Below the pieces are notes generated by a model. The model ran no database searches. It was not told where the DNA came from and saw only the letters and a list, made by a program, of their open reading frames with translations. This document shows positions 17,591 to 58,838 of a DNA stretch of 64,000 nt, piece after piece. The position numbers were made by a program, and so were the translations under genes. Each line of letters starts with the position of its first letter. The stretch's first letter is position 1. The stretch is from Catellatospora methionotrophica (GTDB taxonomy: Bacteria; Actinomycetota; Actinomycetes; Mycobacteriales; Micromonosporaceae), in assembly GCF_011297335.1 (NCBI RefSeq), contig NZ_JAAOTJ010000019.1, forward strand, positions 62,001 through 126,000, read 5' to 3'.

Positions 17591-17655
17591 ATAGACGTTG
17601 GCCTATCTGGATGAGTATTTTTGGATCGAACCCATCCAGATAGGCCAACGTCTAT
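17591..17655. repeat. Inverted repeat family B, copy 1
   Basis: Perfect 23-base arms (17591-17613 and 17633-17655) flank a 19-base centre ending GATCGAACC. Arm core: TAGACGTTGGCCTATCTGG. It sits between two convergent genes. Copies 2 and 3 are at 24130-24194 and 58772-58838. Confidence 0.95.
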
Positions 17656-17710
17656 CACAGGGGAGGTGCGGCCGAGTGTCGCTGGCCCTGGGGGTGGTCG
17701 GGGGCGGGGG

Positions 17711-18430
17711 TCACCAGGGCAGGGCGGTGTCGGGCAGCAGGTCGAGCAGGTAGGCCCCGGCGAGTACGGAGCCGACGGTCCAGAGCAGGAAGACGAACAC
17801 CCAGAACCCGCCCGGCAGCCGCGTGATCCCCGCGAGCTGGTCTGGGTCGGAGCGCATGCCGCTGCCCCGCCGCCGGTGCAGCTGCACCTCCACCACCGGC
17901 CGCACCCCACCGACGAGCAGGAACCACACCCCGGTGTACGCGAACAGCGCCTGCCACGGCGCACTCGCGTACCAGGACACGGCGAACACCGCCGCACCCG
18001 TGGCCAGGATCAGCAGCAGCCCGTAGAAGTTGCGGATCATGACGAGGATCGGGACCAGCAGCAGGATCGTCAGCCACAGCAGCAGCCGGATGTGCCCCCG
18101 GTCGAGCAGCGCCGCACCGCCGATGCCGAGCAGCGACGGGGTCGCGTACCCGGCGAGCAGGGTGACGGCCATGCCGAGCCCGGTCGGCTTGCCCTTCATG
18201 ATGGTCAGCCCCGACGTGTCCGAGTGCAGCCGGATGCCGCGCAGCCGCCGCCCGGTCAGCACCGCCGCGGCCGCGTGCCCGCCCTCGTGCGCGATCGTGA
18301 TGGCGTTGCGCACCACCCGCCAGGACGTGTTCACGCCGACCAGCGCCAGCGCGATCAGCGCCGCCCCGGCCACGACCCCGAACGGGGGCTGCGCCTGCGC
18401 ACCGAGAATGTCACCGAGGGGGATCGACAT
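17711..18430 (-). CDS. M50-type membrane metallopeptidase
   Basis: 239 aa, mostly hydrophobic with about six membrane segments. HEGGH at residues 48-52 inside the second hydrophobic segment is the zinc-binding HExxH motif of site-2-protease-like enzymes. The downstream GLTIMKGKPTGLGMAVTLLAGYATP segment holds the conserved YATP-like turn of the M50B group. It probably cleaves a protein within the membrane; the target is unknown. Start ATG 18430. It stands alone between hairpin B1 and the reductase gene. A second HExxH-independent metal ligand was not identified with certainty. Confidence 0.85.
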   Translation of the reverse strand: MSIPLGDILGAQAQPPFGVVAGAALIALALVGVNTSWRVVRNAITIAHEGGHAAAAVLTGRRLRGIRLHSDTSGLTIMKGKPTGLGMAVTLLAGYATPSLLGIGGAALLDRGHIRLLLWLTILLLVPILVMIRNFYGLLLILATGAAVFAVSWYASAPWQALFAYTGVWFLLVGGVRPVVEVQLHRRRGSGMRSDPDQLAGITRLPGGFWVFVFLLWTVGSVLAGAYLLDLLPDTALPW

Positions 18431-18478
18431 CAGCGCACCCTACCCGCGCTCCCCCACCCATCCCACCCCACCCAGGCG

Positions 18479-19285
18479 TCAGGCCAGGATCTCGGTGGCG
18501 CCGCGGAGGCGGGTACGGAGGACGGACTCGGCGAGGGTGGTGTCGAGGCGTACCTCGGCCGGGGAGATGATGCCGCGGTCGATGGCGCTGCCGGACGCGA
18601 CCCGGTCGGCGGGGATGCCGTGGCGGGACGCGATCAGCACGCCGAGCGCGTGGCGGGTGATGGCCTCCGGGCCGGCGACGTGGATGACGCCACGATGGTC
18701 GCCCTCGGCTAGTTCGAGCAGGGCGGCGGCGAGGTCGTCGACGGCGACCGGGTGGCGGATGTGGTCGGTGAACAGCACGCCGTCCACGCGCCCGGCCGCC
18801 ATGTCGAGCGCGAGCTGGTGCTGCTTGGCGTTGTCGTCGCCGATGATCAGCGAGGTGCGCACGACGGCCGCGTCGGGGTGCACCGCGAGCACCGCCGTCT
18901 CCGCCGCCGCCTTGGCCGCACCGTACGGGTAGACAGGCTCGGGCAGGTCGGCCTCGGTGTAGGGCGCGGGGCGGCCGGTGAAGACCGCGTCGGAGGAGAC
19001 GTGGACCAGCCGCGCTCCGGTGCGCGCCGCGGCGGCGGCGACCCAGGCGGCCCCCAGCGCGGTGACCGCCCAATCCGACTGCGCGTAGCTGGTGTGCACC
19101 ACCGTGTCGGGTCGCAGCTCGTCGAGCAGCCGGTCGACGGCCGCCCGGTCCCGGACGTCGAGCGGCACCAGCCCCTCCACGCGGGTGGAGTGGCTGGTGC
19201 CGGTCACGTCGTGCCCCGCCGCACGGGCGAGGCCCACCAGACGGCCACCGGTGTATCCCGAACCGCCGGTGACCAGGAGACGCAC
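18479..19285 (-). CDS. RmlD-like NAD(P)-dependent sugar reductase/epimerase
   Basis: 268 aa. [16 protein letters not shown] is the dinucleotide-binding loop and VHVSSDAVFTG is the Ser strand. YPYGAAKAAAE is the Tyr-xxx-Lys catalytic pair of extended short-chain reductases, as in dTDP-4-dehydrorhamnose reductase. The GTG start at 19285 shares one base with the TAG of aspS (TAGTG), showing tight coupling downstream of aspS. The exact sugar substrate is uncertain, as no other rhamnose genes are nearby. Confidence 0.85.
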   Translation of the reverse strand: MRLLVTGGSGYTGGRLVGLARAAGHDVTGTSHSTRVEGLVPLDVRDRAAVDRLLDELRPDTVVHTSYAQSDWAVTALGAAWVAAAAARTGARLVHVSSDAVFTGRPAPYTEADLPEPVYPYGAAKAAAETAVLAVHPDAAVVRTSLIIGDDNAKQHQLALDMAAGRVDGVLFTDHIRHPVAVDDLAAALLELAEGDHRGVIHVAGPEAITRHALGVLIASRHGIPADRVASGSAIDRGIISPAEVRLDTTLAESVLRTRLRGATEILA

Positions 19286-21072
19286 TACTTCGCGGCGACC
19301 TTGGCCTTGGCCGCGTCCTCGCCCGGCGCCTTCGGCTTGCCGTCGACGCCCGCCTCCAGGCGCTGCTGCGCCGTGATCGGGGTCGGCGCGCCGGTCAGCG
19401 GGTCGAAGCCGCCGCCCGACTTCGGGAACGCGATGACGTCGCGGATCGAGTCCACCCCGGCCAGCAGCATGCAGACCCGGTCCCAGCCCAGCGCGATGCC
19501 GCCGTGCGGCGGCGGGCCGTACGCGAACGCGTCGAGCAGGAAGCCGAACTTGTCCTTGGCCTCCTCGTCGGTGATGCCGAGCAGAGTGAACACGCGCTTC
19601 TGCACGTCGCCGCGGTGGATACGGATCGAGCCGCCGCCGATCTCGTTGCCGTTGCAGACGATGTCGTACGCGTACGCCAGCGCCTTGTCCGGGGCGGTCT
19701 CGAAGTTGTCGATCCAGTCCTCGTTCGGCGAGGTGAACGGGTGGTGCACCGCGGTCCACGCGTTCTCGGCGACACCGTCGACCTCGACCGGCTCGAACAT
19801 CGGCGCGTCGACGACCCAGCAGAACGCCCAGGCCGACTCGTCGACCAGGCCCGCCCGCTTGGCGATCTCGATCCGGGCCGCGCCGAGCAGCTCCTGCGCG
19901 TGGCGGCGGGTCCCTGCGGCGAAGAACACGGCGTCGCCGGGCTTCGCGCCGACGGCGTCGGCGAGCCCGGCCAGGTGCGCCTCGGACAGGTTCTTGGCGA
20001 CGGGGCCGCGGGCCTCGCCGGTCTCCGCGTCGAGCACCACGTAGGCCAGGCCGCGGGCGCCGCGCGCCTTGGCCCAGTCCTGCCAGCCGTCGAGCTCCTT
20101 GCGGGTCTGCGACGCGCCGCCGGGCATGACCACCGCGCCGGTGTACTCGGCCTGGAACACCCGGAACTCGGTGCCCTCGAAGTAGCCGGTCAGCTCGGTC
20201 AGCTCGACCTGGTAGCGCAGGTCGGGCTTGTCGGAGCCGTAGCGGTTCATCGCGTCGTGGTAGGTGATGCGCGGGATCGGCGTCGGGATCTCGTAACCGG
20301 CCAGCTCGCGCCACAGCGAGCCGACGATCTCCTCGCCGAGCTCGATGACGTCGTCCTGGGTCACGAACGACATCTCGATGTCGAGCTGGGTGAACTCGGG
20401 CTGCCGGTCGGCCCGGAAGTCCTCGTCGCGGTAGCAGCGCGCGATCTGGTAGTAGCGCTCCATGCCGGCCACCATCAGCAGCTGCTTGAACAGCTGCGGG
20501 GACTGCGGCAGCGCGTACCACGCGCCGGGCTGCAGCCGGACCGGGACCAGGAAGTCACGCGCGCCCTCGGGCGTGGACCGGGTCAGCGTCGGGGTCTCGA
20601 TCTCCAGGAAGTCACGCGCGCCCAGCACCTCGCGGGCGATCGCGTTGGCCCGCGAGCGCAGCCGGATCGCCTTGGCCTGGTTGGCCCGGCGCAGGTCCAG
20701 GTAGCGGTGGCGCAGGCGCGCCTCCTCGCCGACGGTGACGTGCTCGTCGATCGGGAACGGCAGCGGCGCGGCCTCCGACAGCACGGTCAGGTCGGTGACG
20801 GTGACCTCGATCGCGCCGGTCGGCAGTTCGGGGTTCTCGTTGCCCTCGGGCCGCGTGCCCACGGTGCCGGTGACCTTGACGCAGTACTCGTTGCGCAGCG
20901 CGTGCGCCTGCGCCTCGTCGCGGAACACGATCTGCACGATGCCGGAGGCGTCGCGCAGGTCGATGAAGGTCACTCCGCCGTGATCACGTCGCCGGGCCAC
21001 CCAGCCGGCGAGGGTGACGCTCTGGCCGGCGTGCTCGGCACGCAGACTGCCAGCGGTGTGGGTACGGATCAC
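19285..21072 (-). CDS. aspS: Aspartyl-tRNA synthetase
   Basis: 595 aa from GTG 21072, with GAGGAGAG about 6 bases upstream; the family begins [16 protein letters not shown], so the longer ATG 21099 reading is rejected. The layout is an OB-fold anticodon domain ([18 protein letters not shown]), a class II core with motif 2 ([18 protein letters not shown]), the bacterial GAD insertion, and motif 3 ([15 protein letters not shown]). It charges tRNA-Asp. The tail after [14 protein letters not shown] is Ala/Lys-rich. It is co-transcribed with the downstream reductase. Confidence 0.97.
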
Positions 21073-21334
21073 GATGCTCTCCTCGGACTGCGGAAACACG
21101 CCGCGGAACGCGGTGCGGCGCCAGAGGTCATTCTCGCATGTGCCCCGGTGCGCCCCGCCGTGAGCGCGGCCTACCTGAAATCCGCCTCAAACTCCGCCCA
21201 AGAAGCCCTTAGCGAGCTTTGTCCGGGACCCGGGTGATCCGAGGCTCGTTCACATGACGTCCGCGCTGCGCGCCCCCTGCCCGCGTGCCGGCTCTCACCC
21301 GGCACGGCGCGGGGGCCGCGGTGTGGCGCCCGCC

Positions 21335-21925
21335 TCATTCGACGTTGGTCACCTGGGAGAACGGACGGCCCTCCCACCAGATCGCGTCCACGACGATCTG
21401 GTCGGAGGCGCGGTGGAACTGCACCACCACCCGCTCCGGGTCCGGCTGGGAGGTCGCGAGCTGGTAGTCGCCGCGCGGGGTGGCCGAGACCAGGTACACC
21501 CGCTCGTGGGCCATCCGGATGACCGCCGTCCCGCCCGCGGTCGGGAAGCTGCGCAGGTAGGACCGCGAACCGTCGGACTCGGTGAACACCTGCCAGCCGT
21601 CGACCGTCATGGCCGGTGACGGCTGCGGCCGGGCTGCCGGCGACGGCGACGTCCTCGGCCTGGTGGGCGAGGTGAGCGGGTCCGGAGCCACCGGTGACGC
21701 CGACGGCACGGGCGCGGGCCCCACCGTCGGCACCGGACGCGAGGGGGTCGCCACCGGCGCGGGCGGCGGCAGGGCCTCCACGCGCAGCGGCACCGGCTCG
21801 GGCACGGCGGTGGCCAGCACCGGGCCCAGGCCCACCCAGACCACGGCCGCCGCCGCGGCGGTGACCGCGGCCCAGCCGCCGACATACGCCGCAGTCCTTG
21901 CCGCAAACGGCCACCCCGAACCCAT
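21335..21925 (-). CDS. Single-pass membrane protein of unknown function
   Basis: 196 aa. One membrane segment spans about 12-38. A Pro/Ala/Ser-rich linker (about 48-105) follows, then a compact C-terminal region of about 90 aa starting MTVDGWQVFTESDGSRSYLR. I recognise no family. The start ATG 21925 lies 35 bases from the divergent response-regulator start, so the two may share regulation. The composition suggests an extracytoplasmic domain held off the membrane by a flexible linker. The region 21073-21334 holds only the aspS leader and nothing else I can identify. Confidence 0.75.
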   Translation of the reverse strand: MGSGWPFAARTAAYVGGWAAVTAAAAAVVWVGLGPVLATAVPEPVPLRVEALPPPAPVATPSRPVPTVGPAPVPSASPVAPDPLTSPTRPRTSPSPAARPQPSPAMTVDGWQVFTESDGSRSYLRSFPTAGGTAVIRMAHERVYLVSATPRGDYQLATSQPDPERVVVQFHRASDQIVVDAIWWEGRPFSQVTNVE

Positions 21926-21960
21926 CCCGCTATCTAACAGCTTCCGATACGGTGCCAGCC

Positions 21961-22656
21961 ATGCCCCTCGTACTCGTCGTGGAGGACGACCCCGCCATTC
22001 GCGACGCGCTCGGCAACGCCCTGACCGTCGCCGGATACGCCGTGCAGACGGTCGGCACCGCGTTGCAAGGACTGAAGTCCCTCACCAGCGAACGCAGCGA
22101 GCGGCCCGACCTGGTCATCCTCGACCTCGGACTGCCCGATCTGGACGGTGCCGACGCGCTGCGCATGATGCGCGCCGTCAGTGACGTGCCGGTGATCGTC
22201 GCGACCGCGCGCCGCGGCGAGCACGACGCGATCCGGCTGCTCAACTCCGGCGCCGACGACTACATGACCAAACCGTTCTCCGCCGCGCACGTGACCGCCC
22301 GGGTCGCCGCGGTGCTGCGCCGGGCCCAGCCACGCGGCGAGTCCGCCGACACGGTCGTCGAGATCGGGCCCCTGCGCATGGACGAGAGCACGCGCGCCGT
22401 CACCCTCGACGGCACCCCGCTGACCCTGACCCGCAAGGAGTACGACGTGCTGGCCTACCTCGCCGCCCGGGTCGGCCGCGTGGTGACCCGGCGTGAGCTG
22501 TTCACCGAGGTGTGGCAGCAGCCGTTCGTCGGCGCCGACCAGACACTCGACGTGCACCTGTCCTGGCTGCGGCGCAAGCTCGGCGAGACCGCGGCGCAGC
22601 CGCGCATGCTGCGTACCATCCGGGGGGTCGGTGTGATGCTGGTGCCGCCGTCATGA
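21961..22656 (+). CDS. OmpR-family response regulator
   Basis: 231 aa. The receiver domain (1-120) has the acidic pair E8/D9/D10, the phospho-acceptor D55 (VILDLGLPD), T82 and K104 (MTKPF). The winged-helix output domain (about 135-230) has the TLTRKEYDVLAYLA and TLDVHLSWLRRKLG signatures. ATG 21961 starts the receiver; upstream codons are out of family. SERSER near residue 43 has the same flavour as repeat F. Its TGA overlaps the kinase ATG (ATGA), so the pair forms an operon. The stimulus is unknown. Confidence 0.95.
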   Translation: MPLVLVVEDDPAIRDALGNALTVAGYAVQTVGTALQGLKSLTSERSERPDLVILDLGLPDLDGADALRMMRAVSDVPVIVATARRGEHDAIRLLNSGADDYMTKPFSAAHVTARVAAVLRRAQPRGESADTVVEIGPLRMDESTRAVTLDGTPLTLTRKEYDVLAYLAARVGRVVTRRELFTEVWQQPFVGADQTLDVHLSWLRRKLGETAAQPRMLRTIRGVGVMLVPPS

Positions 22657-23978
22657 GGGCGACCCTGGCCCGTGGCGCGCTCGCCGTGACCTCGATGGTG
22701 GCGCTGGCCTTCCTGGTGCCGCTCGCGCTGGTCACCAAGCAGATCGCCGAGGACCGGGCGCTGCTCGACGCGCGCCAGCAGGCCGCCGCGGTCGTCACCG
22801 CGCTGGCCGCGTCGACCGATCCGGCGGTGCTCAGCCGGGCCATGGCGACCACCGCCGACGGGCCGCGCCAGCGACTGGCCGTACACCTGCCGACCGGGGT
22901 GTCGCTGGGCGCGAGCCGGGCCGAGACGGCCGACATCACACTGGCCGCCGACCGGGGCGGCTCGCTGACCGCGCCGGTCGAGGACGGCCTGGTGTACCTG
23001 CAGCCCGCCGCGCTCGACGGCGGCCGCAACGCGGTCGTCGAGGTGTTCGTGCCCGAGGCCGACCTGTCCCGGGGCGTGGCCACCGCCTGGTGGTCCATGG
23101 GCGCGCTGGCGGCCCTGCTGGTCGCCGTGTCGGTGGCGCTGGCCGACCGGCTCGGCTGGCGGGTGGTCGGCGCGACCCGGCAACTGGCCCGCGCCTCCCG
23201 CGCCGTCGGCTCCGGCGACCTGACCGTACGCGTCGATCCCGCCGGACCGCCCGACCTCGTCGAGGTCGGCGAAGCCTTCAACGCGATGGCCGACCGGCTC
23301 AACGCGGTCATCGACGCCGAACGCGAGCGCGCCGCCGACCTGTCGCATCGCCTGCGTACCCCGCTGACCGCGCTGCGCCTGGACACCGACGCGCTGCCAC
23401 CCGGCCCCGAGAGCGACCGCATGCGCCAGGCCGTCGAAGCCCTCGACGCCGAGATCGACGCGATCATCGCGGGCGCGCGCCGCACCGCCGCCGAACGCGC
23501 CGCCGAGGAGACCGACCTGGTGGACGTGGTGGCAGACCGGCTGGCGTTCTGGGCGGTGCTCGCCGAGGACCACGGCCGCCCCTGGCAGGTCGACGGCACC
23601 GATACCCCCGTCTGGCTGCCGGTGCCCCGCTCCGACGCCATCGGCGCGATCGACGCGCTGATCGGCAACATCTTCCGGCACACCCCGCACGGCACCGCGT
23701 TCCGCGTCAGCGTCACCCCCGAAGCCCTCGTCGTCGAGGACGGCGGCCCCGGCATCGCCGACGCCGACGCGGCCCTGCAACGCGGCGTCAGCGGCGGCGG
23801 CTCCACCGGCCTGGGCCTGGACATCGTCTGCCAGCTGGCCCGCCAGGCGGGCGGCAGCATCGCCGTCGATCGCGGCGACCTCGGCGGCGCCCGCGTGACC
23901 GTCACCCTGACCCCGCTGGCCCCCGCCGCCCCCGCCCACGCCGCCGCCATCCGCTTCCGCCGAGGCCAACAAGCCTGA
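22653..23978 (+). CDS. Membrane sensor histidine kinase
   Basis: 441 aa. Membrane segments at about 8-28 and 145-165 bracket an extracytoplasmic sensor of about 115 aa. A HAMP linker follows (RQLARASRAVGSGDLTVRV). H232 in the SHRLRTPLT box is the phosphorylated His. The ATP lid contains IGNIFRHTP, EDGGPGIAD and STGLGLDIVCQLA. The start is fixed by the ATGA overlap with the response regulator. This resembles cell-envelope kinases of the CseC/CutS type, but the signal is not deducible. Confidence 0.95.
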   Translation: MRATLARGALAVTSMVALAFLVPLALVTKQIAEDRALLDARQQAAAVVTALAASTDPAVLSRAMATTADGPRQRLAVHLPTGVSLGASRAETADITLAADRGGSLTAPVEDGLVYLQPAALDGGRNAVVEVFVPEADLSRGVATAWWSMGALAALLVAVSVALADRLGWRVVGATRQLARASRAVGSGDLTVRVDPAGPPDLVEVGEAFNAMADRLNAVIDAERERAADLSHRLRTPLTALRLDTDALPPGPESDRMRQAVEALDAEIDAIIAGARRTAAERAAEETDLVDVVADRLAFWAVLAEDHGRPWQVDGTDTPVWLPVPRSDAIGAIDALIGNIFRHTPHGTAFRVSVTPEALVVEDGGPGIADADAALQRGVSGGGSTGLGLDIVCQLARQAGGSIAVDRGDLGGARVTVTLTPLAPAAPAHAAAIRFRRGQQA

Positions 23979-24019
23979 CCCGGCCCCGCCGCGCCACGCG
24001 CCCGTGCCCGTGCCCGTGC

Positions 24020-24088
24020 CAAGATCACTGTTTCCGGTCAAAAAGTGCGGTTGGACCCCACCTTTTGGACCCGAAACGGCGATCTTTC
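24020..24088. repeat. Inverted repeat family A, copy 2 (degenerate)
   Basis: AAGATCACTGTTTCCGGTC (left) faces GACCCGAAACGGCGATCTT (right); the right arm is intact and the left has several changes. It lies 40 bases after the kinase stop and 40 bases before repeat B2. Confidence 0.7.
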
Positions 24089-24129
24089 TTCGCACCGACC
24101 ACCGGAGTCCGACTCCGACCCCGCCAGCG

Positions 24130-24194
24130 ATAGACGCTGGCCTATCTCGTCGAAAAAAGAGAGATCGAACTCGACGAGATAGGCCAGCGTCTAT
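24130..24194. repeat. Inverted repeat family B, copy 2
   Basis: Perfect 24-base arms (24130-24153, 24171-24194) and a 17-base centre ending GATCGAAC. Compared with copies 1 and 3 the arms differ at several positions (for example GCTGG for GTTGG, CGTCGA for GGATGA), but each change is matched on the other arm. It lies between the convergent kinase and NagZ-like genes. Confidence 0.95.
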
Positions 24195-24243
24195 TCAAAT
24201 CGGCGTCCCCGCGCACGCGTCCCCCGCACGCGCCCCCGATGCC

Positions 24244-25806
24244 TCAGTGTGTCGCGCCCGCCAGGGCTTCCGCGGCGGCCTGGCCGCAGACGGCGGCGGC
24301 GCCGTACGTCGTCAGGTGCAGCGCCCCCACGGGCTCCCCCGCGGCCACGCCCATCTCGACTACAACCGTCTCCGGCCGCGCCGCGACGACGGCCGCGATC
24401 AGGTGCGCCAGCCACGGGTGCCGGTGCGGGTCGCGGCACACCAGCACCGGCACCCGCCCCTGCGCCCCGCCGAGCACGTCGGCGACTGTCGCCCGCTCGT
24501 CCAGCCGCACCACGGTCGTATCGGGCCGCAGCGCCTTCAACGGCGCACCCACACCCCACGGCGTACGCGCCTCGATGGCCAGGTTCATCGCGACCCCGAA
24601 CTCGACCACGTGCGCGGGTCCGGCCAGCGGCAGCGTCCCCGCGCCGGTGACGCGCAGCGCCCGGCGGGCCGCGGCCAGCCCGATCTCGGGCCGGTCGGCG
24701 GCGTGCCAGCGGGCGGCGGCCGCGGCGCGCGAGCCTCGCTCGGCGGCGCTCTCGGCGGCGAACGCGGCGACCCGCGAGGCCGCCTCGGCCAGGCGCTCCT
24801 CGGGCAGTTCGCCGCTGACGACGGCGTCGACGATGCTGGTGCGCAGCAGTTCGACGACGGCCTCGTCGGCGCTCTCGCCGCCGACGCAGATGGCGTCCGC
24901 GCCGCCCGCGATGGCCAGCGCGGCCGCGCCGCCGAGGCCGTAGCGCTGGGCGACCGAGGCCATCTCGATGCCGTCGGTGACCACGAGGCCCTTGAAGCCG
25001 AGCTGTTCGCGCAGCAGGTCGATGAGCACCGACCGGCTCATGGTGGCGGGGCGCTCCGGGTCCAGCGCGGGCACCAGCAGGTGCGCGGTCATGATGGAGC
25101 GGACCCCGGCGTCGATCGCGGCGGTGAACGGCGGCAGTTCGACCTGGCCGAGCCGGGCGGCGTCGACCTCGATGACGGGCAGGCCGTGGTGGGAGTCGAC
25201 GCCGGTGTCGCCGTGGCCGGGGAAGTGCTTGGCGCAGGCGGCCACGCCGGTGGACTGCAGGCCCCGGATCCAGGCGGCGGTGTGCCGGGCGACCAGGTCG
25301 GGGGTGCCGCCGAAGGAGCGTACGCCGATGACCGGGTTGGCGGGGTTGTTGTTGACGTCCGCGGCGGGCGCGTAGTCCAGGGTGATCCCGGCCGCGGCGA
25401 GCTGCGCGCCGATGTCGGCGGCGACGGCCTCGGTGAGCGCGGGGTCGTCGACCGCGCCGAGGGCGTGGTTGCCGGGGCGGCGGCTGCCGTGCTCCACGTC
25501 GAGGCGGGTGACGTCGCCGGACTCCTCGTCGACGGCGATGATCACGTCGGGGTTCTCCGCGACCAGGGCCGCGGACAGCGCCGCGACCTGGTCGAGGTCG
25601 ATGATGTTGCGGGCGAACAGGACTACGCCGCCGAGCCCGTCGTTGAGGCGGCGGCGTAGCCAGTCCGGCGGGGCCGTGCCGACGAAGCCGGGTTGCAGCA
25701 CCGTGTCGGCCAGCCGGAGCAGACCACGATCGTGCAGGTGGGGCCGCTGTCCCGGCGCTGTGGTGGTGCCCAGCGCCGGGGACGTGCGGTGGTCTGTCGT
25801 GGTCAT
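24244..25806 (-). CDS. Family 3 glycoside hydrolase, NagZ-like beta-N-acetylglucosaminidase
   Basis: 520 aa. It probably removes GlcNAc from muropeptides or chito-oligosaccharides during wall recycling. The GH3 barrel occupies about 30-350. KHFPGHGD at 193-200 and the Asp-Ser-His dyad at 204-206 (acid/base) match NagZ, and the nucleophile is D278 in VVTDGIEM. There is no signal peptide, so it appears cytoplasmic. The C-terminal 170 aa form a second, weaker domain. The start is ATG 25806. An AT-rich palindromic motif (25845-25864) precedes it. Substrate preference is inferred from the catalytic dyad. Confidence 0.9.
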   Translation of the reverse strand: MTTTDHRTSPALGTTTAPGQRPHLHDRGLLRLADTVLQPGFVGTAPPDWLRRRLNDGLGGVVLFARNIIDLDQVAALSAALVAENPDVIIAVDEESGDVTRLDVEHGSRRPGNHALGAVDDPALTEAVAADIGAQLAAAGITLDYAPAADVNNNPANPVIGVRSFGGTPDLVARHTAAWIRGLQSTGVAACAKHFPGHGDTGVDSHHGLPVIEVDAARLGQVELPPFTAAIDAGVRSIMTAHLLVPALDPERPATMSRSVLIDLLREQLGFKGLVVTDGIEMASVAQRYGLGGAAALAIAGGADAICVGGESADEAVVELLRTSIVDAVVSGELPEERLAEAASRVAAFAAESAAERGSRAAAAARWHAADRPEIGLAAARRALRVTGAGTLPLAGPAHVVEFGVAMNLAIEARTPWGVGAPLKALRPDTTVVRLDERATVADVLGGAQGRVPVLVCRDPHRHPWLAHLIAAVVAARPETVVVEMGVAAGEPVGALHLTTYGAAAVCGQAAAEALAGATH

Positions 25807-25844
25807 GCGCGTACGGCCCCCGTTTCAGAGTCGAGGACCACACA

Positions 25845-27195: not shown

Positions 27196-27225
27196 GGGGT
27201 CACTCCAGGAAGGAAGAAGTCTGAA

Positions 27226-30949: not shown

Positions 30950-30963
30950 CCCCGTGTTCATTT

Positions 30964-31012
30964 CTTGACGAGTCGCGCCCTCGTCATGCCGACGAGGGCG
31001 CGAGTCTTCAAG
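30964..31012. terminator. Two-way terminator between cyclophilin 3 and relA
   Basis: CGCGCCCTCGTC (30974-30985) pairs with 30991-31002 around ATGCC; outer bases CTTGA (30964-30968) and TCAAG (31008-31012) can extend the stem. It is placed between convergent stops at 30949 and 31023. Confidence 0.85.
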
Positions 31013-31022
31013 AGTGGGGCGG

Positions 31023-44084: not shown

Positions 44085-44187
44085 CGGCGGCGCGGCCAGG
44101 GCGCGAACGGGGGTTCGGCGTCGTTGCGGATCAGGGCGCCGCAACGCCGCAGAGGGGGATGCCCGTGCCGCGCCGCAACCACCCGAG

Positions 44188-44241
44188 GCAAGGAAGGGCA
44201 CCTTGCACACTGCACGACGATGTGAAGGTGCCCTTCCTTGC
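44188..44241. repeat. Inverted repeat family C, copy 1
   Basis: Perfect 17-base arms (GCAAGGAAGGGCACCTT and its complement) at 44188-44204 and 44225-44241 flank a 20-base centre. The GGAAGGGCACCTT core also forms the arms of the copy at 47874-47928. It lies between the convergent lipoprotein and TetR genes. Confidence 0.9.
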
Positions 44242-44287
44242 TTCAGGGTCTGCTTGCCGCGCGGCTTCAGGGTCTGCTTGCCGCGCG
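44240..44287. repeat. Perfect 24-bp tandem duplication
   Basis: A 24-base unit beginning GCTTCAGGGTCTGC and ending CCGCGCG occurs twice head to tail (44240-44263, 44264-44287). It abuts and overlaps the right arm of repeat C1. It contains no gene. Confidence 0.9.
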
Positions 44288-46698: not shown

Positions 46699-46808
46699 CA
46701 AGCCGACGCTACGCCCGTCTCCCCAAATACGAAACCACCCCGTCTCGAAAGTGACCCTCCCCACTCCCCGGAATAACACCCTCCACCCCCACCCCCATCC
46801 CCCACCTC

Positions 46809-46871
46809 GGCCGCAACTCTTAAAGACTTGCGGCCTCCGGGCAGGTCGGAGGCCGCAACTCTTTAAGAGTT
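46809..46871. repeat. Composite hairpin D (GGCCGCAACTCTT)
   Basis: Three stems run head to tail: GGCCGCAA/TTGCGGCC (46809-46835), GGCCTCCG/CGGAGGCC (46832-46854) and AACTCT-TTA-AGAGTT (46857-46871). GCCGCAACTCTT occurs twice as a direct repeat (46810, 46852). This is the only long repeat here lying between divergent genes. Confidence 0.75.
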
Positions 46872-47091
46872 GTCGATGGGTCAGGGGGTGGCGGGGGTCG
46901 GCGGCGGAGGCGGGAGTGGGGGTGATCTAGAGCGTGGAAAGCCTGTGTCATCAGGCGGCTAGAGCCATGTCACGCGTCGGCACAATCGACACGTCGGCGA
47001 TGTGCGATTCGCGCGGTTCCGCCCCCCTCGTCTGCCACCATCGGATGAAGCGGACAAACCCGTCCGTGTCACGAAACAGAGGGGTATCGGC

Positions 47092-47865: not shown

Positions 47866-47873
47866 CCAGCGGT

Positions 47874-47928
47874 CGATAGGAAGGGCACCTTCTTAACGCT
47901 CGGCGTTAAGAAGGTGCCCTTCCTATCG
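47874..47928. repeat. Inverted repeat family C, copy 2 (26-bp perfect arms)
   Basis: Arms at 47874-47899 and 47903-47928 are perfectly complementary around the 3-base loop TCG. The outer half (GGAAGGGCACCTT) is shared with copy C1; the inner part (TTAACGC) is specific. It begins 9 bases past the VOC stop and lies between convergent genes. Confidence 0.95.
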
Positions 47929-47965
47929 CCCCACCCGCCCAAGCGAGCGCGAGGCGCGAGTCGCG

Positions 47966-49285: not shown

Positions 49286-49324
49286 CAGATCCTCCGTCAG
49301 CGCGCTGGTGAAGACTCCCCCGGG

Positions 49325-49933: not shown

Positions 49934-49969
49934 AGGTCCTCCAAGAAGATCATCCACTGTAGGTCGAGT

Positions 49970-51361: not shown

Positions 51362-51421
51362 GGGCGTGATCTTCGGGCGTTCTTCGGTGCGGGTAAACAG
51401 GGTCCGCATAGTCTTCGGGAC

Positions 51422-51892: not shown

Positions 51893-51900
51893 ACGCAGAA

Positions 51901-51961
51901 GATCGCCGTCCCGTGTCGAAACCCCAGGCCTGACCCGAGGTGGTGACACGAAACGGCGATC
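51901..51961. repeat. Inverted repeat family A, copy 3
   Basis: GATCGCCGTCCCGTGTC faces GACACGAAACGGCGATC with two mismatches. It lies between the convergent Lrp and pdxS genes, 8 bases after the Lrp stop. Confidence 0.85.
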
Positions 51962-51992
51962 CTGAATTACGCAGCGACCACGGCCGCGGTGA

Positions 51993-52901
51993 TCACCAGC
52001 CGCGCTCGGCCAGGCGGTGCGGCTGCGGGATCTCGTCGACGTTGATGCCGACCATGGCCTCGCCCAGGCCGCGGGAGACCTTGGCGAGCACGTCCGGGTC
52101 GTCGTAGAAGGTGGTGGCCTTCACGATCGCCTCGGCGCGCTGGGCCGGGTTGCCCGACTTGAAGATGCCCGAGCCGACGAAGACGCCCTCGGCGCCGAGC
52201 TGCATCATCATCGCGGCGTCGGCCGGGGTGGCGATGCCGCCCGCGGTGAACAGCACGACGGGCAGCTTGCCGGTCTCGGCGATCTCCTTGACCAGCTCGT
52301 ACGGGGCCTGCAGCTCCTTGGCCGCGACGTAGAGCTCGTCGGAGGGCAGGGTGGTGAGCTTCATGATCTCGCCACGGATCTTGCGCATGTGGGTGGTGGC
52401 GTTGGACACGTCACCGGTGCCCGCCTCGCCCTTGGAGCGGATCATGGCCGCGCCCTCGGTGATCCGGCGCAGCGCCTCGCCCAGGTTGGTCGCGCCGCAC
52501 ACGAACGGCACGGTGAACTGCCACTTGTCGATGTGGTTGGCATAGTCGGCCGGGGTCAGCACCTCGGACTCGTCCACGTAGTCGACGCCGAGCGCCTGCA
52601 GCACCTGGGCCTCGACGAAGTGGCCGATGCGGGCCTTGGCCATGACCGGGATGGAGACGGCGTTGATGATGCCGTCGATCATGTCGGGGTCGCTCATGCG
52701 GGACACGCCGCCCTGGGCCCGGATGTCGGCGGGCACGCGCTCCAGCGCCATGACGGCCACGGCGCCCGCGTCCTCGGCGATCTTCGCCTGCTCCGCGTTG
52801 ACGACGTCCATGATCACGCCGCCCTTGAGCATCTCGGCCATGCCGCGCTTGACGCGGGCGGTGCCGGTCACCGGTACGTTCACAGACTCGGTTGCAGACA
52901 T
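51993..52901 (-). CDS. pdxS: Pyridoxal 5'-phosphate synthase subunit PdxS
   Basis: 302 aa from ATG 52901. It condenses ribose 5-phosphate, glyceraldehyde 3-phosphate and ammonia to [24 protein letters not shown] is the N-terminal signature. K89 in [11 protein letters not shown] is the ribose-phosphate Schiff-base Lys, and [11 protein letters not shown] holds the second Lys. The C-terminal [14 protein letters not shown] is typical. It works with pdxT (49325-49933). Its 3' end is 32 bases from repeat A3. Confidence 0.97.
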
Positions 52902-53109
52902 GATGTCGCGCTTCTCCTGACACACGGAATCGAGGACCGCGGAGGAGGGCCGCCTTCGATCAGGCGGCGGCAGGCTCCGCTGGGGTCGATTCTACGCGGG
53001 GGCGGGCAGGCCACCCGACGGCCAATCAGCACCCTGTGGCCCGACCTGTGACGCCAGTCACAGGTGTGACCTGCGACTATTCAGCGGGAGCCGCAAATGT
53101 ACCCGGAAC

Positions 53110-53610
53110 TCAGACCGCGCTCAAGGTCGGGTCGTCGATGTCGAAGTACGACGGGCGGGTGTGCTTGCGGTTGAGTCGCAGCACCCGCACCAGCGGCCGC
53201 TCGCGCGCGGCCAGCGCGGCGCGGACCAGGTCGGTGTGCATCTGGCGGGCCAGCGCCACCCGGCGGCTCGCCGCCACCACCGCCGCCCCGTTCGGCTCCT
53301 GCGGGTCGAGGGCCTGCTTGCGCAGCATCCGGGTGAGGTCGTTCTCCGACGCCTCCCGGTCGTCCTCGCGGGCGTCCAGCGCGGCGCGGGCGGCGGCGTA
53401 CAGGTCAGCGCCCGCGGGATCGCCGCCCAGCTCGGTCTCGGCGAGCACCGCGGCGGCCGCCGCCCGGCGCACCAGCTGCGAATCCAGCGCCCGGCCCGCC
53501 GAGGCGGCGCGCAGGTGCAGGCGGTCCACCCGCCCGGCGGTCCAGGTGACGTACGACGCGATCACGACCACCAAGGCCACCACGCCGATCACCCAACCCA
53601 TGCCGGGCAT
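53110..53610 (-). CDS. Membrane-anchored protein downstream of pimA
   Basis: 166 aa from ATG 53610 (ATG 53601 also possible). One membrane segment (MGWVIGVVALVVVIASYVTW) is followed by a helical Ala/Arg/Leu-rich cytoplasmic region with GRVDRLHLRAASAGRALDSQLVRRAAAA and a tail ending YFDIDDPTLSAV. It resembles the membrane part of the conserved gene that follows pimA in actinobacteria, which in mycobacteria is fused to a NUDIX domain; no NUDIX motif is present here. Its function is unknown. It starts 24 bases beyond the pimA stop. Confidence 0.8.
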   Translation of the reverse strand: MPGMGWVIGVVALVVVIASYVTWTAGRVDRLHLRAASAGRALDSQLVRRAAAAAVLAETELGGDPAGADLYAAARAALDAREDDREASENDLTRMLRKQALDPQEPNGAAVVAASRRVALARQMHTDLVRAALAARERPLVRVLRLNRKHTRPSYFDIDDPTLSAV

Positions 53611-53633
53611 CGTAGTGGTGCCGGGTAACCCCC

Positions 53634-54788
53634 TCACCACTCGGCAGGGGCCTCGGCGCCGCTCACCGTCTCACCCAGCGCCTCGATCGCGCTGTTGTAC
53701 ACCTCCAGCACCCGCGCGGCGACGACCGGCCAGTCGTACGCCGCGACCACCCGCTCGGCGTGCGCGGCCAGCTCACGGCGGCGCTCGCCGTCGTCGAGCA
53801 GGGTGCTGACGGCCTCGCCCAGCGCCGTGGCGTCGCCGTTGGGGAACAGCGCCCCGGCCCGGCCGCCGTCGAGCACCCGGCGGAACGCGTCGAGGTCGGT
53901 GGCGACCACGGGCGCGCCCGCCGCCATCGCCTCGGTCAGGATCATGCCGAACGACTCGCCGCCGGTGTTCGGCGCGATGTACAGGTCGACGCTGCGCAGC
54001 ATGCGGGCCTTGTCCTGCTCGGACACCTTGCCCAGGAACGTGGTGCGCTCGGCCACCACCGGCGGCAGCTCCACCTCGTCGAGGTCGCCGGGTCCGGCCA
54101 GCAGCAGCCGCAGGCCGGGACGCTGCGGCATCACCTCGGCCAGCGCGCGGGCCAGGATGTCGAAGCCCTTGCGGGGTTCGGTGAAGCGGCCCAGGAAACC
54201 GACCGTGCCGCCGTATCCCGGACGGCACTCCCCCGGCCAGCCGGGCAGCGGTTCCGCGTCGGCGAAGTGGGCCACCGAGACGCCGTTGGGGATCTCCACC
54301 GCGCCGCCGTCCAGGTGCTCGACCTGCACCCGGCGGGCCAGCTCGCTGACCGCGATGCGGCCGGTGATGCGCTCCAGCACCACCCGGGCCACCGGGGCGC
54401 CGGCGGCCAGCGCGCGCGAGCGGGTCATCGCCGTGTGGAAGGTCGCCACCACCGGGCCGCGCGCCGACATCACCGCCAGCAGTGACAGGCTCGGCGTCAG
54501 CGGCTCGTGCACGTGCAGCACGTCGAAGTCGCCCTGGTGCAGCCAGCGGCGGGTGCGGGCGGCCGAGATCGGGCCGAAGTTGAGCCGGGCCACCGACCCG
54601 TTGTACGGCACCGGCACGGCCCGCCCGGCAGCCACCACGTACGGCGGCAGGGGCTGGTCGTCGTCGGCGGGCGCGAGCACGCTGACCTCGTGCCCCATCG
54701 CGATCAGGGTCTCGGCGAGGTCGCGTACGTGGAACTGCACGCCGCCCGGCACGTCCAGCGAGTACGGGCAGACGATTCCGATCCGCAC
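53634..54788 (-). CDS. pimA: Phosphatidylinositol mannosyltransferase PimA
   Basis: 384 aa from GTG 54788, one base after the acyltransferase stop. PimA transfers the first mannose from GDP-mannose to phosphatidylinositol at the membrane. It has the GT-B fold: MRIGIVCPYSLDVPGGVQFHV, VLHVHEPLTPS, then GFLGRFTEPRKGFDIL and the donor site GESFGMILTEAMAAGAPVVA. It is the third gene of the pgsA-acyltransferase-pimA run. Confidence 0.95.
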   Translation of the reverse strand: MRIGIVCPYSLDVPGGVQFHVRDLAETLIAMGHEVSVLAPADDDQPLPPYVVAAGRAVPVPYNGSVARLNFGPISAARTRRWLHQGDFDVLHVHEPLTPSLSLLAVMSARGPVVATFHTAMTRSRALAAGAPVARVVLERITGRIAVSELARRVQVEHLDGGAVEIPNGVSVAHFADAEPLPGWPGECRPGYGGTVGFLGRFTEPRKGFDILARALAEVMPQRPGLRLLLAGPGDLDEVELPPVVAERTTFLGKVSEQDKARMLRSVDLYIAPNTGGESFGMILTEAMAAGAPVVATDLDAFRRVLDGGRAGALFPNGDATALGEAVSTLLDDGERRRELAAHAERVVAAYDWPVVAARVLEVYNSAIEALGETVSGAEAPAEW

Positions 54789-54789
54789 G

Positions 54790-55737
54790 TCACTCCTCGT
54801 GGTCGGGGACGCCCGCCGCCGCGGTGGCGCGGGCGGTCGCCGGGTCGCCCGCGGGCGGCTCGGTCAGCCACAGCTTCTGCAGCATGTGCCAGTCGGCCGG
54901 GTGCGCGGCGATACCGCGGGCCAGACCGTCGGCGACCTGCTGGGTGAGCAGCTTGACCCGGACGTCCAGCGGCCCGGCGGACGCGTCGGGCACCGCCAGC
55001 GGGCCGATCACCCGCCCGCAACCGGAGTCCGGCTCGTACCACATGTCCACCACGAACAGCGGCGCGCCGGTGCGCAGGGCCAGCATCGCCGGACCGGCCG
55101 GCATGCGGGTGCGCCCGCCGAAGAACGCGACCTCGACACCGCGCGCGGACAGGTCGCGGTCGGCCAGCAGCGGCACGATGTGCGCCTGCCCGAGCGCCTC
55201 GACCAGCGCGTCGATCGGCGAACCCTTGCCACCGGCGGTCGGGATGATGGTCATGCCCAGCTTCTCGCGGTACGCCAGGAACCGCCGGTACACGCCCTCC
55301 GGCTTGAGCCGCTCGGCGACCGTGGTCAGCGGCACCCCGTGCGCGGTGACCACGGCTCCGGCGGCGTCCCAGTTGCCCGCGTGCGGCAGCGCGACGATCG
55401 CGCCGGTGCCCGCCGCGTGCGCGTCGAGCAGCTTCTCGACGCCGTGCAGCCGGAACCCGTCGCGCAGCTGCTCCTTGGACTTCGAGGGCAGCCGGAACGC
55501 CTCCAGCCAGTACCGGGCGTACGAGCGCACCGCGTCGCGGACCAGCTCGTCGGACGGTTCGCGGCCGAGCACGTTGCGCAGGTTGCGAGCCAGCCGCTGC
55601 ACGCCCGGCCCGCGCCTGGCGGCGGCCCGGTCCGCGCCGGTCCGGAACAGCGCCCTGGCGGTGGACTCGGGCAGGGCGCGGACCAGCCGCCACCCGGCCG
55701 CGTAGCCGAACTCGACCAGCCGCTCGCGCCCGCTCAC
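54790..55737 (-). CDS. Phosphatidylinositol mannoside acyltransferase
   Basis: 315 aa from GTG 55737, with GGGGAGA 5-6 bases upstream. It belongs to the LpxL/HtrB acyltransferase family; by context it acylates mannosylated phosphatidylinositol, like PatA of mycobacteria. The H-x4-D motif is H119-AGNW-D124. RFLAYREKLGMTIIPTAGGKG and LLADRDLSARGVEVAFFGG follow the family. No membrane segment is strong, so it is probably peripheral. It lies between pgsA and pimA. Confidence 0.92.
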   Translation of the reverse strand: MSGRERLVEFGYAAGWRLVRALPESTARALFRTGADRAAARRGPGVQRLARNLRNVLGREPSDELVRDAVRSYARYWLEAFRLPSKSKEQLRDGFRLHGVEKLLDAHAAGTGAIVALPHAGNWDAAGAVVTAHGVPLTTVAERLKPEGVYRRFLAYREKLGMTIIPTAGGKGSPIDALVEALGQAHIVPLLADRDLSARGVEVAFFGGRTRMPAGPAMLALRTGAPLFVVDMWYEPDSGCGRVIGPLAVPDASAGPLDVRVKLLTQQVADGLARGIAAHPADWHMLQKLWLTEPPAGDPATARATAAAGVPDHEE

Positions 55738-55780
55738 GCCATCTCCCCGCTGTGTCCGCTGGTCAGCTCGCCACGCTCGC

Positions 55781-56401
55781 TCACACCGGCTCCTGGGCCG
55801 ACTCGTTCTTGTGTACGTGCCACATGCGCTGCCAGATGGTGAACACCGAACCGGCCGCCAGCAGCCACAGCGAGGCGGGCAGGCCCCAGGACAGGCCGAA
55901 GCCGGCCAGCAGCGCGCCGACGCCGACGATGATCAGGCGCTCGGCGCGCTCGACCAGGCCGACGTGGCAGGACATGCCCAGGCCCTCGGCCCGCGCCTTG
56001 ACGTAGGACACGACCTGTCCGGTGACCAGGCAGATCAGCGCTGCGGCTAGCGAGGCCCGGTCGCCGGTGCCCGCGTACCACCAGGCGATGGCGGCGAAGA
56101 TCGCGCCGTCGGCGATCCGGTCCATGGTCGAGTCCAGCAGCGCGCCGTACCGGCTGGCCGTGCCGCGGGCGCGGGCCATGGAGCCGTCCATGATGTCCGT
56201 GAGGCCGCACACCAAGATGATCACCACGGCGGCGATCCAGTGCCCGCGTGCCGCGAAACCGAAGGCGCCGACGAGCACGCCCAGGGTGCCGACTATGGTC
56301 ACCGCGTTCGGGCTGACGCCCGCGCGCAACAGGGCCCGGCTGAGGGGATCGAGCAGGCGGGCCGTGCCGGCCTTGCCCACCACGCTGAGGATCTTCGCCA
56401 T
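55781..56401 (-). CDS. pgsA: CDP-alcohol phosphatidyltransferase (phosphatidylinositol-phosphate synthase)
   Basis: 206 aa from ATG 56401 (MAKILSVVGKAGTARLLDP). The CDP-alcohol signature is complete: D69, D72, G73, A76, R77, G86, D90 and D94. About six membrane segments follow. In actinobacteria this enzyme joins CDP-diacylglycerol and inositol-phosphate, supplying the substrate for PimA, which is encoded two genes downstream. A longer upstream reading (56569) has no support. It diverges from the EF-G-like gene. Confidence 0.93.
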   Translation of the reverse strand: MAKILSVVGKAGTARLLDPLSRALLRAGVSPNAVTIVGTLGVLVGAFGFAARGHWIAAVVIILVCGLTDIMDGSMARARGTASRYGALLDSTMDRIADGAIFAAIAWWYAGTGDRASLAAALICLVTGQVVSYVKARAEGLGMSCHVGLVERAERLIIVGVGALLAGFGLSWGLPASLWLLAAGSVFTIWQRMWHVHKNESAQEPV

Positions 56402-56538
56402 GATGGCGCTAACGATAGCGGTGTGGATTGGCACGCCCGACGGCGGCGACACGCTGACGCCTGGGTGGTATCCGTACGCCCGATGGGTGTGGGATCGGAA
56501 ACAATGCAGTAACCGACACGGCAACAGGAGGCGGACAG

Positions 56539-58701
56539 ATGGCGCGCGGCGACAGGGAGAAGGTCTCACAGGCTCCGGCGCAGGTCGCCGAGCAGCCGTC
56601 GGACGTGCGCAACGTGGTGGTGGTCGGGCACGCCGGCAGCGGTAAGACGACGCTGGTCGAGGCGCTGCTCGCCGCGACCTCGACGATCAGCCGCGCGGGT
56701 ACGGTCGCCGAGGGCACCACGGTCACCGACCACGACCCGGCCGCCGTCAAGCAGCAGCGCTCCGTCGCGCTGGCCTGCGCGCCGCTCACCCACCAGGGCG
56801 TCAAGGTCAACCTGCTGGACACCCCCGGCTACGCCGACTTCGTGGGCGAGCTGCGCGCGGGCCTGCGCGCCGCCGACGCGGCCCTGTTCGTGGTCAGCGC
56901 CTGGGACGGCATGGACGCCGCGACGGCCACCCTCTGGGACGAGTGCGCCGCGGTCGGCATGCCGCGCGCCGTGGCGATCACCCGGCTGGACCACCCGCGG
57001 GCCGACTTCGACGAGGCCGTCGCGCTGTGCCAGCGGGTCTTCGGCGAGGAGGTGCAGCCGCTGTACCTGCCCATGCACGGCGACGACGGCCAGTCCGTGG
57101 AGGGCCTGATCGGCCTGATCTCGCAGCAGGTGTACGACTACTCGAACGGCTACCCGCCCCAGGTGCGCCAGCCCGACGCCGAGCACCTGCCCGCGATCGA
57201 GGAGTCCCGCGGCGAGCTGATCGAGGGCATCATCGCCGAGAGCGAGGACGAGACCCTGATGGACCGGTACCTCGCCGGTGAGGTCATCGACCCCCAGGTG
57301 CTCATCGACGACCTGGAGAAGGCCGTCGCCCGCGGCCACTTCCACCCGGTGGTGCCGGTGTGCGCCGAGACCGGCGTCGGCCTGGACGCGCTGCTGGAGC
57401 TGCTGACCCGGGCCTTCCCGACCCCGCTGGAGCACCCGCTGCCCGCCGTCACCAGCGTCGACGGCTCGCCCCGCGACGCCCTCGACTGCGACCCGGACGG
57501 CCCGCTGGTGGCCGAGGTGGTCAAGACGACCATCGACCCGTACGTGGGCCGGGTCAGCCTGGTCCGCGTCTTCTCCGGCACGCTGCGCCCGGACACCCCC
57601 GTACACGTCAGCGGCCACGGCCTGGCCGAGCGCGGCCACCCCGACCACGACGCCGACGAGCGCGTGCTGCACGTCTACTCCCCGCTGGGCGCGAACCTGC
57701 GCGAGGTCGGCAAGTGCGTGGCCGGTGACATCTGCGCGGTCACCAAGTCCACCGCCGCCGAGACCGGCGACACCATCTCCGGCAAGGACAAGCCGCTGCT
57801 GGTGGCCCCGTGGTCGATGCCCGAGCCGCTGCTGCCGGTCGCCGTGGTGCCCAAGACCCGCTCCGACGAGGACGCGCTCGCCAAGAACCTGGCCAAGCTG
57901 GTCGCGGGCGACCCGACGCTGCGCCTGGAGCGCAACCCGGAGACCCACCAGCTCGTGCTGTGGTGCATGGGCGAGGCACACGCCGACGTGGTCCTGGACC
58001 GGCTGCGCGCGGGCGGCGTCGACCTGTCCACCGAGCCCGCGAAGGTCGCGCTGCGCGAGGCGTTCGCCGCCCCGGCCGCCGGGCAGGGCCGCCACGTCAA
58101 GCAGTCCGGCGGGCACGGCCAGTACGCCGTCTGCGCGATCCAGCTCGAACCGCTGCCGCGCGGCACCGGCATCGAGTTCGTCGACAAGATCGTGGGCGGG
58201 GCCATCCCGCACAACTACATCCCCAGCGTCGAGAAGGGGGTACGCGCGCAGGCCGAGAAGGGCATCGTCGCCGGTTATCCCGTGGTCGACTTCCGGGTGA
58301 CCCTGGTCGACGGCAAGGCGCACAGCGTCGACTCCTCCGACGCGGCGTTCCAGACCGCCGGCAGCATGGCTCTGAAGGACGCCGCCGAGAAGGCGCAGAT
58401 CACGCTGCTGGAGCCGGTCGACGAGGTGGTCGTCACGGTGCCGGACACGGCCGTCGGCGCGGTGATGAGCGACCTGTCCGGCCGCCGGGGCCGGGTGCTC
58501 GGCTCCGCATCCGACCCGGGCGGCGCCGACCGTACCCAGGTCCGCGCCGAGGTGCCCGCCGTCGAACTGCTGCGCTACCTGGTCGACCTGCGCTCGATGA
58601 CCGCCGGCGCGGGCACCTTCACCCGCGAGTTCGCCCGCTACGAGCCCATGCCCAGCCACCTCGCCGACCAGGCCCGCAAAGACCACACCCCAACCCGCTG
58701 A
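56539..58701 (+). CDS. EF-G-like protein (FusA2/EF-G2 type)
   Basis: 720 aa, with AGGAGG before ATG 56539. It has the five-domain build of elongation factor G. The P loop is GHAGSGKT (30-37) and G3 is DTPG (94-97). Two guanine-nucleotide motifs differ from canonical EF-G: G4 reads TRLD (148-151) rather than NKMD, and the switch I RGIT is RSVA (74-77). Domain IV carries GQGRHVKQSGGHGQY. This is the paralogue group known from actinobacteria, whose role in translation is unclear. It is a single gene within the PIM region. Confidence 0.92.
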   Translation: MARGDREKVSQAPAQVAEQPSDVRNVVVVGHAGSGKTTLVEALLAATSTISRAGTVAEGTTVTDHDPAAVKQQRSVALACAPLTHQGVKVNLLDTPGYADFVGELRAGLRAADAALFVVSAWDGMDAATATLWDECAAVGMPRAVAITRLDHPRADFDEAVALCQRVFGEEVQPLYLPMHGDDGQSVEGLIGLISQQVYDYSNGYPPQVRQPDAEHLPAIEESRGELIEGIIAESEDETLMDRYLAGEVIDPQVLIDDLEKAVARGHFHPVVPVCAETGVGLDALLELLTRAFPTPLEHPLPAVTSVDGSPRDALDCDPDGPLVAEVVKTTIDPYVGRVSLVRVFSGTLRPDTPVHVSGHGLAERGHPDHDADERVLHVYSPLGANLREVGKCVAGDICAVTKSTAAETGDTISGKDKPLLVAPWSMPEPLLPVAVVPKTRSDEDALAKNLAKLVAGDPTLRLERNPETHQLVLWCMGEAHADVVLDRLRAGGVDLSTEPAKVALREAFAAPAAGQGRHVKQSGGHGQYAVCAIQLEPLPRGTGIEFVDKIVGGAIPHNYIPSVEKGVRAQAEKGIVAGYPVVDFRVTLVDGKAHSVDSSDAAFQTAGSMALKDAAEKAQITLLEPVDEVVVTVPDTAVGAVMSDLSGRRGRVLGSASDPGGADRTQVRAEVPAVELLRYLVDLRSMTAGAGTFTREFARYEPMPSHLADQARKDHTPTR

Positions 58702-58771
58702 CCGGGCCTACGCCGGCACCCCACCACGGCACCGCATTTCGCGCCAGCCCGCGCCGCCGCCCACCCAACCG

Positions 58772-58838
58772 CATAGACGTTGGCCTATCTGGATGACTTT
58801 TCGATGATCGAACTCATCCAGATAGGCCAACGTCTATG
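58772..58838. repeat. Inverted repeat family B, copy 3
   Basis: Perfect 25-base arms (58772-58796, 58814-58838) around a 17-base centre ending GATCGAAC. Arm core matches copy 1 exactly (TAGACGTTGGCCTATCTGG). It lies between the convergent EF-G-like and deacetylase genes. Confidence 0.96.

Follow-up and report, generated by a model that had tools for sequence, protein, structure and literature searches.

The stretch of DNA considered here (the window) comprises 64,000 nucleotides from Catellatospora methionotrophica (contig NZ_JAAOTJ010000019.1, positions 62,001 to 126,000 of the forward strand), and three of its intergenic gaps, each lying between convergent genes according to the gene calls of the window, hold a copy of a long, hairpin-forming inverted repeat. 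These copies (Table 1) belong to a repeat that is specific to the genus Catellatospora within the genomes searched, and whose copies mark the 3′ ends of genes. A preliminary description of the window had proposed a structured element under selection with perfect arms, and both the coordinates and the arms were confirmed: 23 pairs enclose a 19-nt centre in copy 1, 24 pairs a 17-nt centre in copy 2, and 25 pairs a 17-nt centre in copy 3. The predicted RNA folds of the three copies, on both strands, have energies between −41.8 and −47.1 kcal/mol and z-scores between −10.1 and −13.8. Copies 2 and 3 differ at pairs 8, 19, 21 and 22, all four differences being compensated on the opposite arm. Comparison with copy 1 adds a fifth, at pair 24, where copy 1 carries an A-C mismatch; the earlier claim that every change in copy 2 is matched therefore holds within the 23 perfect pairs of copy 1 and fails at pair 24.

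The search was extended to the genome of the window, an 8.39-Mb Catellatospora draft (G000; other G numbers denote the other genomes searched). With two mismatches allowed at most, a core pattern of 18 bases gave 105 forward and 104 reverse matches in G000, and the same pattern read backwards as a control gave none. A covariance model built from 23 copies and run on 87 fetched G000 stretches (947 kb) returned 206 matches, one on either strand at each of 103 places; the family thus has about 100 copies, not only three. The count is a lower bound (at least 103), as a length-tolerant pattern, TGGCCTAT and ATAGGCCA separated by 22–50 bases, gives 108. This copy number and the empty backward control bear out the earlier view that the repeats are not due to chance. 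The length of the element is nearly fixed (65 bp in 101 of the 103 copies, 64 bp in the other two), and solitary half-copies are absent from the fetched G000 stretches, where all 205 half-sites (at most two mismatches) have an inverted partner within 80 nt. The window had no Rfam match at the gathering cut-off, and a single 65-bp query found no match in plasmids and phages. Six pattern matches in viral contigs were set aside as chance, since just 11–14 of the 24 pairs form in them.

The evidence that the element is maintained as a paired structure comes from the 99 distinct copies, in which 96.8% of the pair cells (one pair in one copy) are standard pairs. Two-sided changes occur at 10 of the 24 pairs, in 233 cells, compared with a mean of 91 after shuffling and with none of 500 shuffles as high; the covariation score, 0.249 versus 0.102 shuffled, was likewise reached in none of the 500. 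When the partner was slid by one to three columns, the paired cells fell to 27–38% and the cells with two-sided changes to eight or fewer. Pairing is thus kept while the sequence changes, as the preliminary description had it. The arms are near-perfect (mean 23.0 of 24 pairs), and A-C and G-T mismatches are both present among the copies. Pairs 17–22 switch freely and covary strongly; seven pairs (6, 10–13, 15 and 16) are identical in all 99 copies, an invariance that is in part a matter of ascertainment because copies were collected by the core pattern or by a model trained on exact-core copies, and in G002 the core of one orthologous copy is damaged. The centre is asymmetric and varies around a theme: of 101 copies, 27 have exactly GATCGAAC, 62 have GATC[GA]AA[CT] and 82 have GATC at that place, so that the loop motif, common to all three window copies and first taken to be invariant, did not prove so across the genome. 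The flanks of the 103 copies show, on both sides, an outward consensus resembling G-N-A-A-A-R-C-G-G-G-G. A lower stem reaching beyond the 65 bp was considered and rejected, as the flanks pair across the element no better than shuffled flanks.

Table 1. Hairpins and associated features (window coordinates, except where a locus is named)
Feature	Position	Strand	Remarks
Hairpin copy 1	17591..17655	+	65 bp; 23 perfect pairs, then A-C mismatch
Genes flanking copy 1	16842-17576(+) / 17711-18430(-)		GNAT gene / M50B peptidase gene; convergent
Most conserved arm block (copy 1 as example)	17599..17606	+	TGGCCTAT; pairs with ATAGGCCA at 17640-17647
17-nt centre of copy 1	17615..17631	+	ends GATCGAAC; motif variable genome-wide
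Hairpin copy 2	24130..24194	+	65 bp; 24 perfect pairs
Genes flanking copy 2	22653-23978(+) / 24244-25806(-)		histidine kinase gene / GH3 (glycosyl hydrolase 3) gene; convergent
Hairpin copy 3	58772..58838	+	65-bp unit at 58773-58837, with 1 extra outer pair
Genes flanking copy 3	56539-58701(+) / 58848-59618(-)		EF-G-like gene / polysaccharide deacetylase gene; convergent
Copies overlapping called genes	L148:11754-11818; L157:11978-12042		2 of 103 copies
Hairpins of second family	44182-44247; 47871-47931		GGAAGGGCACCTTC...GAAGGTGCCCTTCC; convergent gaps
Hairpin of another type	30963-31013		CGCGCCCTC core; convergent gap
Inverted repeats near gene ends	3113-3179; 51901-51961		GATCGCCGT type
Imperfect inverted repeat	46789-46897		109 bp, 76% complementary; CAACTCTTAAAGA in arms; divergent gap

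The placement of the copies relative to genes was followed with gene calls from a home-made codon-score finder, not an annotation pipeline. In G000, 60 of the 103 copies lie in convergent, 35 in tandem and 5 in divergent gaps, with 2 overlapping called genes and 1 at a contig edge. Where the neighbours are in tandem, 34 of the 35 copies lie closer to the stop codon upstream, at a median of 45 nt, than to the start downstream (118 nt), and the loop is opposed to transcription in 25 of the 35 (p 0.017). Among gaps of at least 65 bp, those holding a copy number 58 out of 106 where the genes converge, 35 out of 258 in tandem and 5 out of 144 where they diverge (odds ratio 10.9 for convergent gaps relative to the others, p 1.5e-21), figures of which only the comparison between classes counts because the stretches were chosen around copies. 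A syntenic comparison of 55–80 kb from 11 genomes of the genus, with gaps of 30–1000 bp and the family scored by the exact core pair, placed it in 18 of 68 convergent gaps (the window supplying 3 of the 18), in none of 289 tandem gaps and in none of 85 divergent gaps. Convergent placement, seen in all three window copies, is a strong preference across the genome but no rule, and placement is not random. The preliminary description would have been abandoned on finding only three copies, random placement or no excess of compensatory changes; what was found is about 100 copies, convergent enrichment and an excess of two-sided changes.

The distribution of the family is narrow. The length-tolerant pattern, run on 250 genomes of the family Micromonosporaceae, was present in 11 and absent from the other 239; the 11 are the complete set of genomes from the window's genus. 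Exact core pairs were found in every one of the 11, with exact-pattern copy numbers from 1 to 134 (G000 108, G009 134, G010 62). A more stringent pattern that includes the GATCGAAC loop retrieved 25 stretches from the named genome collection, all in three Catellatospora species. At the low end, the model matched just 7 and 6 places in G001 and G007 (loci L095, L105, L096, L107 and others), most of them low-scoring. An incomplete genome of another genus (G015, 69% complete) gave two weak model matches, the best with an E value of 1.8e-5, and none by pattern.

How the positions are transmitted could be followed between G000 and G010, which are 92.7% identical over 25 aligned genes (the tree and identities draw on 25 of the 33 genes shared across the syntenic region). 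The 45 G010 copies examined were drawn from lists ranked by the model and from pattern lists (the pattern matches there total 62), and for 33 of them a G000 copy occupies the corresponding gene gap. One of these pairs, of unequal length, was dropped from the comparison; among the other 32, orientation is conserved in 25 by the loop motif and in 26 by identity, and similarity is slightly higher between orthologous copies than between non-orthologous ones (0.770 vs 0.746; permutation 0/5000; p 0.0016 for the centre alone and 0.0004 for the outer arms), on which account the positions were probably inherited in place. The orthologous copy was, in fact, never the best match among the 101 G000 copies (0/32; ranks 2–90, median 40), a rank that is independent of how the G010 copies were selected. 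A nearer relative among the other G010 copies exists for 30 of the 32, a figure inflated by copy selection because most of the copies behind the model were of the CTGGATGA type. Of the 768 pair cells at the 32 orthologous sites, 591 are the same and 177 differ; 116 of the latter have changed on both sides and are still Watson-Crick pairs (500 random deals of the G000 right arms give 74 on average and never more than 92), and 9 changed in other ways. The inner arm CY[AG]G[ATG][AG]GA, found in 1 of 101 G000 copies, prevails in G004, where all 12 listed copies carry it, and in G009, where 11 of the 16 listed do. The copies of this dispersed family have, for the most part, changed together, and pairing has mostly survived.

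The same gaps also accommodate other hairpins. With a score of at least 14 defining a strong hairpin, and single-base shuffles as the only background, strong inverted repeats of any family were found in 53 of the 68 convergent gaps of the syntenic region, in 57 of the 289 tandem gaps and in 2 of the 85 divergent ones, and in none after shuffling. Within the G000 stretches, a strong repeat is also present in some gaps that lack the present family: 35 of the 70 convergent, 42 of the 291 tandem and 4 of the 143 divergent gaps. One and the same orthologous gap may hold, in different species, the present family, another family, or nothing, the gap then having shrunk to −6 to 24 bp. A second family, GGAAGGGCACCTTC...GAAGGTGCCCTTCC, occurs in 5 of 101 genomes, all of them members of the genus, of which that sample has six; its exact copies number 68 in G000, 39 in G001, 76 in G007 and 0 in G009, the genome with 134 copies of the present family. 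G001 and G007, rich in the second family, are nearly devoid of the present one. This suggests that the hairpin families may be interchangeable in use. The window holds further inverted repeats (Table 1); the orthologues of the CGCGCCCTC-core hairpin in four relatives remain long hairpins with differing arms.

The reading that we favour, and consider probable, is that this genus-specific hairpin of about 24 pairs serves as a two-way 3′ boundary of transcripts, either terminating them or stabilising their ends. Its support consists of the sequence family itself, the pairing that two-sided changes have largely preserved, the 3′-end and convergent placement, the positions and (mostly) the orientation shared by two species, and the presence of other long hairpins at the same gaps in other species. 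The hairpin would act in RNA, where it would terminate transcripts or block the 3′-5′ decay of ends made otherwise, for example by Rho; its conserved core, TGGCCTAT/ATAGGCCA, may be read by some factor, and the copies within a genome may be homogenised by gene conversion or may drift jointly with a trans-acting reader. The bidirectional terminator, one of the options raised at the outset, fits the placement, given a stable predicted hairpin at gene 3′ ends and the convergent enrichment, although termination itself is something that we infer. It would not be a canonical intrinsic terminator, a GC-rich stem with a T-run, because no T-run follows.

Several observations weigh against the boundary reading. 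There is no downstream U-tract, since none of the 103 copies has TTTT in the 20 nt to its right and one has it in the 20 nt to its left, and the conserved core is not required by a plain terminator. An RNA strand polarity was considered, as G000 shows 46 A-C against 23 G-U mismatches (p 0.008), and was rejected: the asymmetry was not repeated in 32 G010 copies (13 A-C, 16 G-U), and the tandem copies show no preference for G-U in the sense of the transcript (11 G-U, 9 A-C). At the orthologous sites, 52 of the 177 differing cells are one-sided, with one member left unpaired. Finally, 35 of the 70 convergent G000 gaps without the present family also lack any strong hairpin, and, since G001 and G007 moreover keep so few places, the element is dispensable.

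The alternative of a non-autonomous mobile palindrome, similar to a REPIN (a hairpin of paired repetitive extragenic palindromes, REP) or to a miniature inverted-repeat transposable element (MITE), would have some enzyme recognising the hairpin, with gene ends merely tolerating insertion; we regard it as rather unlikely. It would account for the roughly 100 copies, dispersed and almost uniform in length, a conserved core within otherwise changing arms, copy numbers that differ so widely between species, a prevailing inner arm that differs by species, and the lack of half-copies. However, the 33 of 45 shared gaps and 25 of 32 kept orientations favour inheritance in place, and the enzyme proposed earlier, a REP-associated tyrosine transposase (RAYT), did not come to light: none of the 11 genus genomes passed the cut-off of 80 for the REP-transposase model NF047646 (three gave a weak sub-threshold match, the best at 28.1 bits), other transposase families lying outside the search. 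A Y1-type transposase gene was indeed found, as three PF01797 (Y1_Tnp) genes in G000, but they are IS605 TnpA genes, each adjoining an IS605 OrfB/TnpB gene, and the fetched 3.4 kb near them contains no element core. (Of these Y1 and OrfB/TnpB units, L288, L289 and L290, the first is about 80% identical to each of the others.) At the ends of the 103 copies, GT[AG]G within 6 nt of either foot was seen in none, as at the control position. Nor was there a sign of target-site duplication: direct repeats of 2–4 bp were within the shuffled range, none of 6–9 bp occurred, and a 5-bp direct repeat was found at one copy (shuffled mean 0.05, maximum 1). A RAYT origin was dropped for want of a candidate. 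Of the preliminary description, the structured, pairing-conserved element of convergent gaps stands, without the invariant loop motif and the RAYT-moved unit.

It is improbable that the element is instead a site read in DNA by gyrase or a nucleoid protein where convergent transcription stacks positive supercoils, as has been proposed for the REP and bacterial interspersed mosaic elements (BIME) of E. coli. The convergent enrichment, the conserved core and the missing G-U preference would suit such a site, whereas the matched inner-arm changes indicate pairing in a hairpin and not reading of a duplex, and the position of 34 of 35 tandem copies, nearer to the end of the upstream gene, also speaks against it. 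Least credible is a mutational artefact, in which template switching perfects an imperfect palindrome and yields matched changes without selection, for it agrees with near-perfect arms and with the occurrence of A-C as well as G-T mismatches but leaves the conserved core, the near-fixed length and the 3′-end placement unexplained, and the element persists where, judged by eye, short flanks no longer align.

Going beyond the boundary reading, we tentatively put forward, as a conjecture that may well prove wrong, that the roughly 100 gene-end hairpins of each genome co-evolve, as a single set, with a putative trans-acting reader that recognises the TGGCCTAT/ATAGGCCA core when folded as a hairpin, whether in a sequence-specific termination or 3′-end system or as a REPIN-like population under a RAYT-unrelated enzyme; as the specificity of this reader changed, dozens of orthologous sites would be driven to change in parallel without losing their pairing. 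The family bears on the unsettled question of how transcripts end without a U-tract in high-GC actinomycetes. As the sequence turns over within the same gaps, it provides natural compensatory mutants at many sites, with which termination, decay protection and mobility could become separable. It also combines REPIN-type population behaviour, seemingly without RAYT, with the turnover of a gene-end hairpin family inside one genus.

Searches of one literature library for palindromes, repeats and terminators in Catellatospora and Micromonosporaceae found no published description of this hairpin family, and several known systems invite comparison. The DNA uptake sequences of Neisseria form inverted pairs that act as gene-end terminators, with a conserved core and species dialects. 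The Catellatospora element similarly has a conserved core and inverted pairs at gene ends; unlike the uptake sequences, it has, in the fetched G000 stretches, 205 partnered half-sites and no solitary ones. TRIT, reportedly described in the RNIE paper as a repeated, U-tailed intrinsic-terminator motif of Mycobacterium tuberculosis, resembles the present element as an actinobacterial, repeated 3′-end hairpin, from which the missing T-run sets the Catellatospora element apart, by the description of TRIT only. The transcript 3′ ends of Streptomyces avermitilis have a stem, with a U-rich motif in about 25% of ends (PMC8780764), and those that lack the U-rich motif are similar in being stem-bearing 3′ ends of a high-GC actinomycete; the consulted part of that report does not present them as a family of repeats, unlike the hairpins considered here.

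The nearest known kind is the REPIN populations with their RAYT enzymes. In the consulted parts of the reports, REPINs and REP-BIMEs are short palindromic extragenic units, on the order of 100 per genome, often between convergent genes and forming within-genome populations (PMC8049555, PMC1525189), and a GT[AG]G foot is a feature of REPs and REPINs that some classes lack (PMC6006769). The Catellatospora family likewise consists of about 100 short extragenic palindromes, often in convergent gaps, and many such dispersed palindromes are found as an inherited within-genome population. It differs in having no RAYT above the cut-off, no GT[AG]G foot and, in the fetched stretches, no half-copies, and in that its unit is one 24-pair hairpin of about 65 bp whose orthologous arms differ largely two-sidedly. 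The family is best read as REPIN-like without RAYT, its copies passed on in place and evolving together inside each genome.

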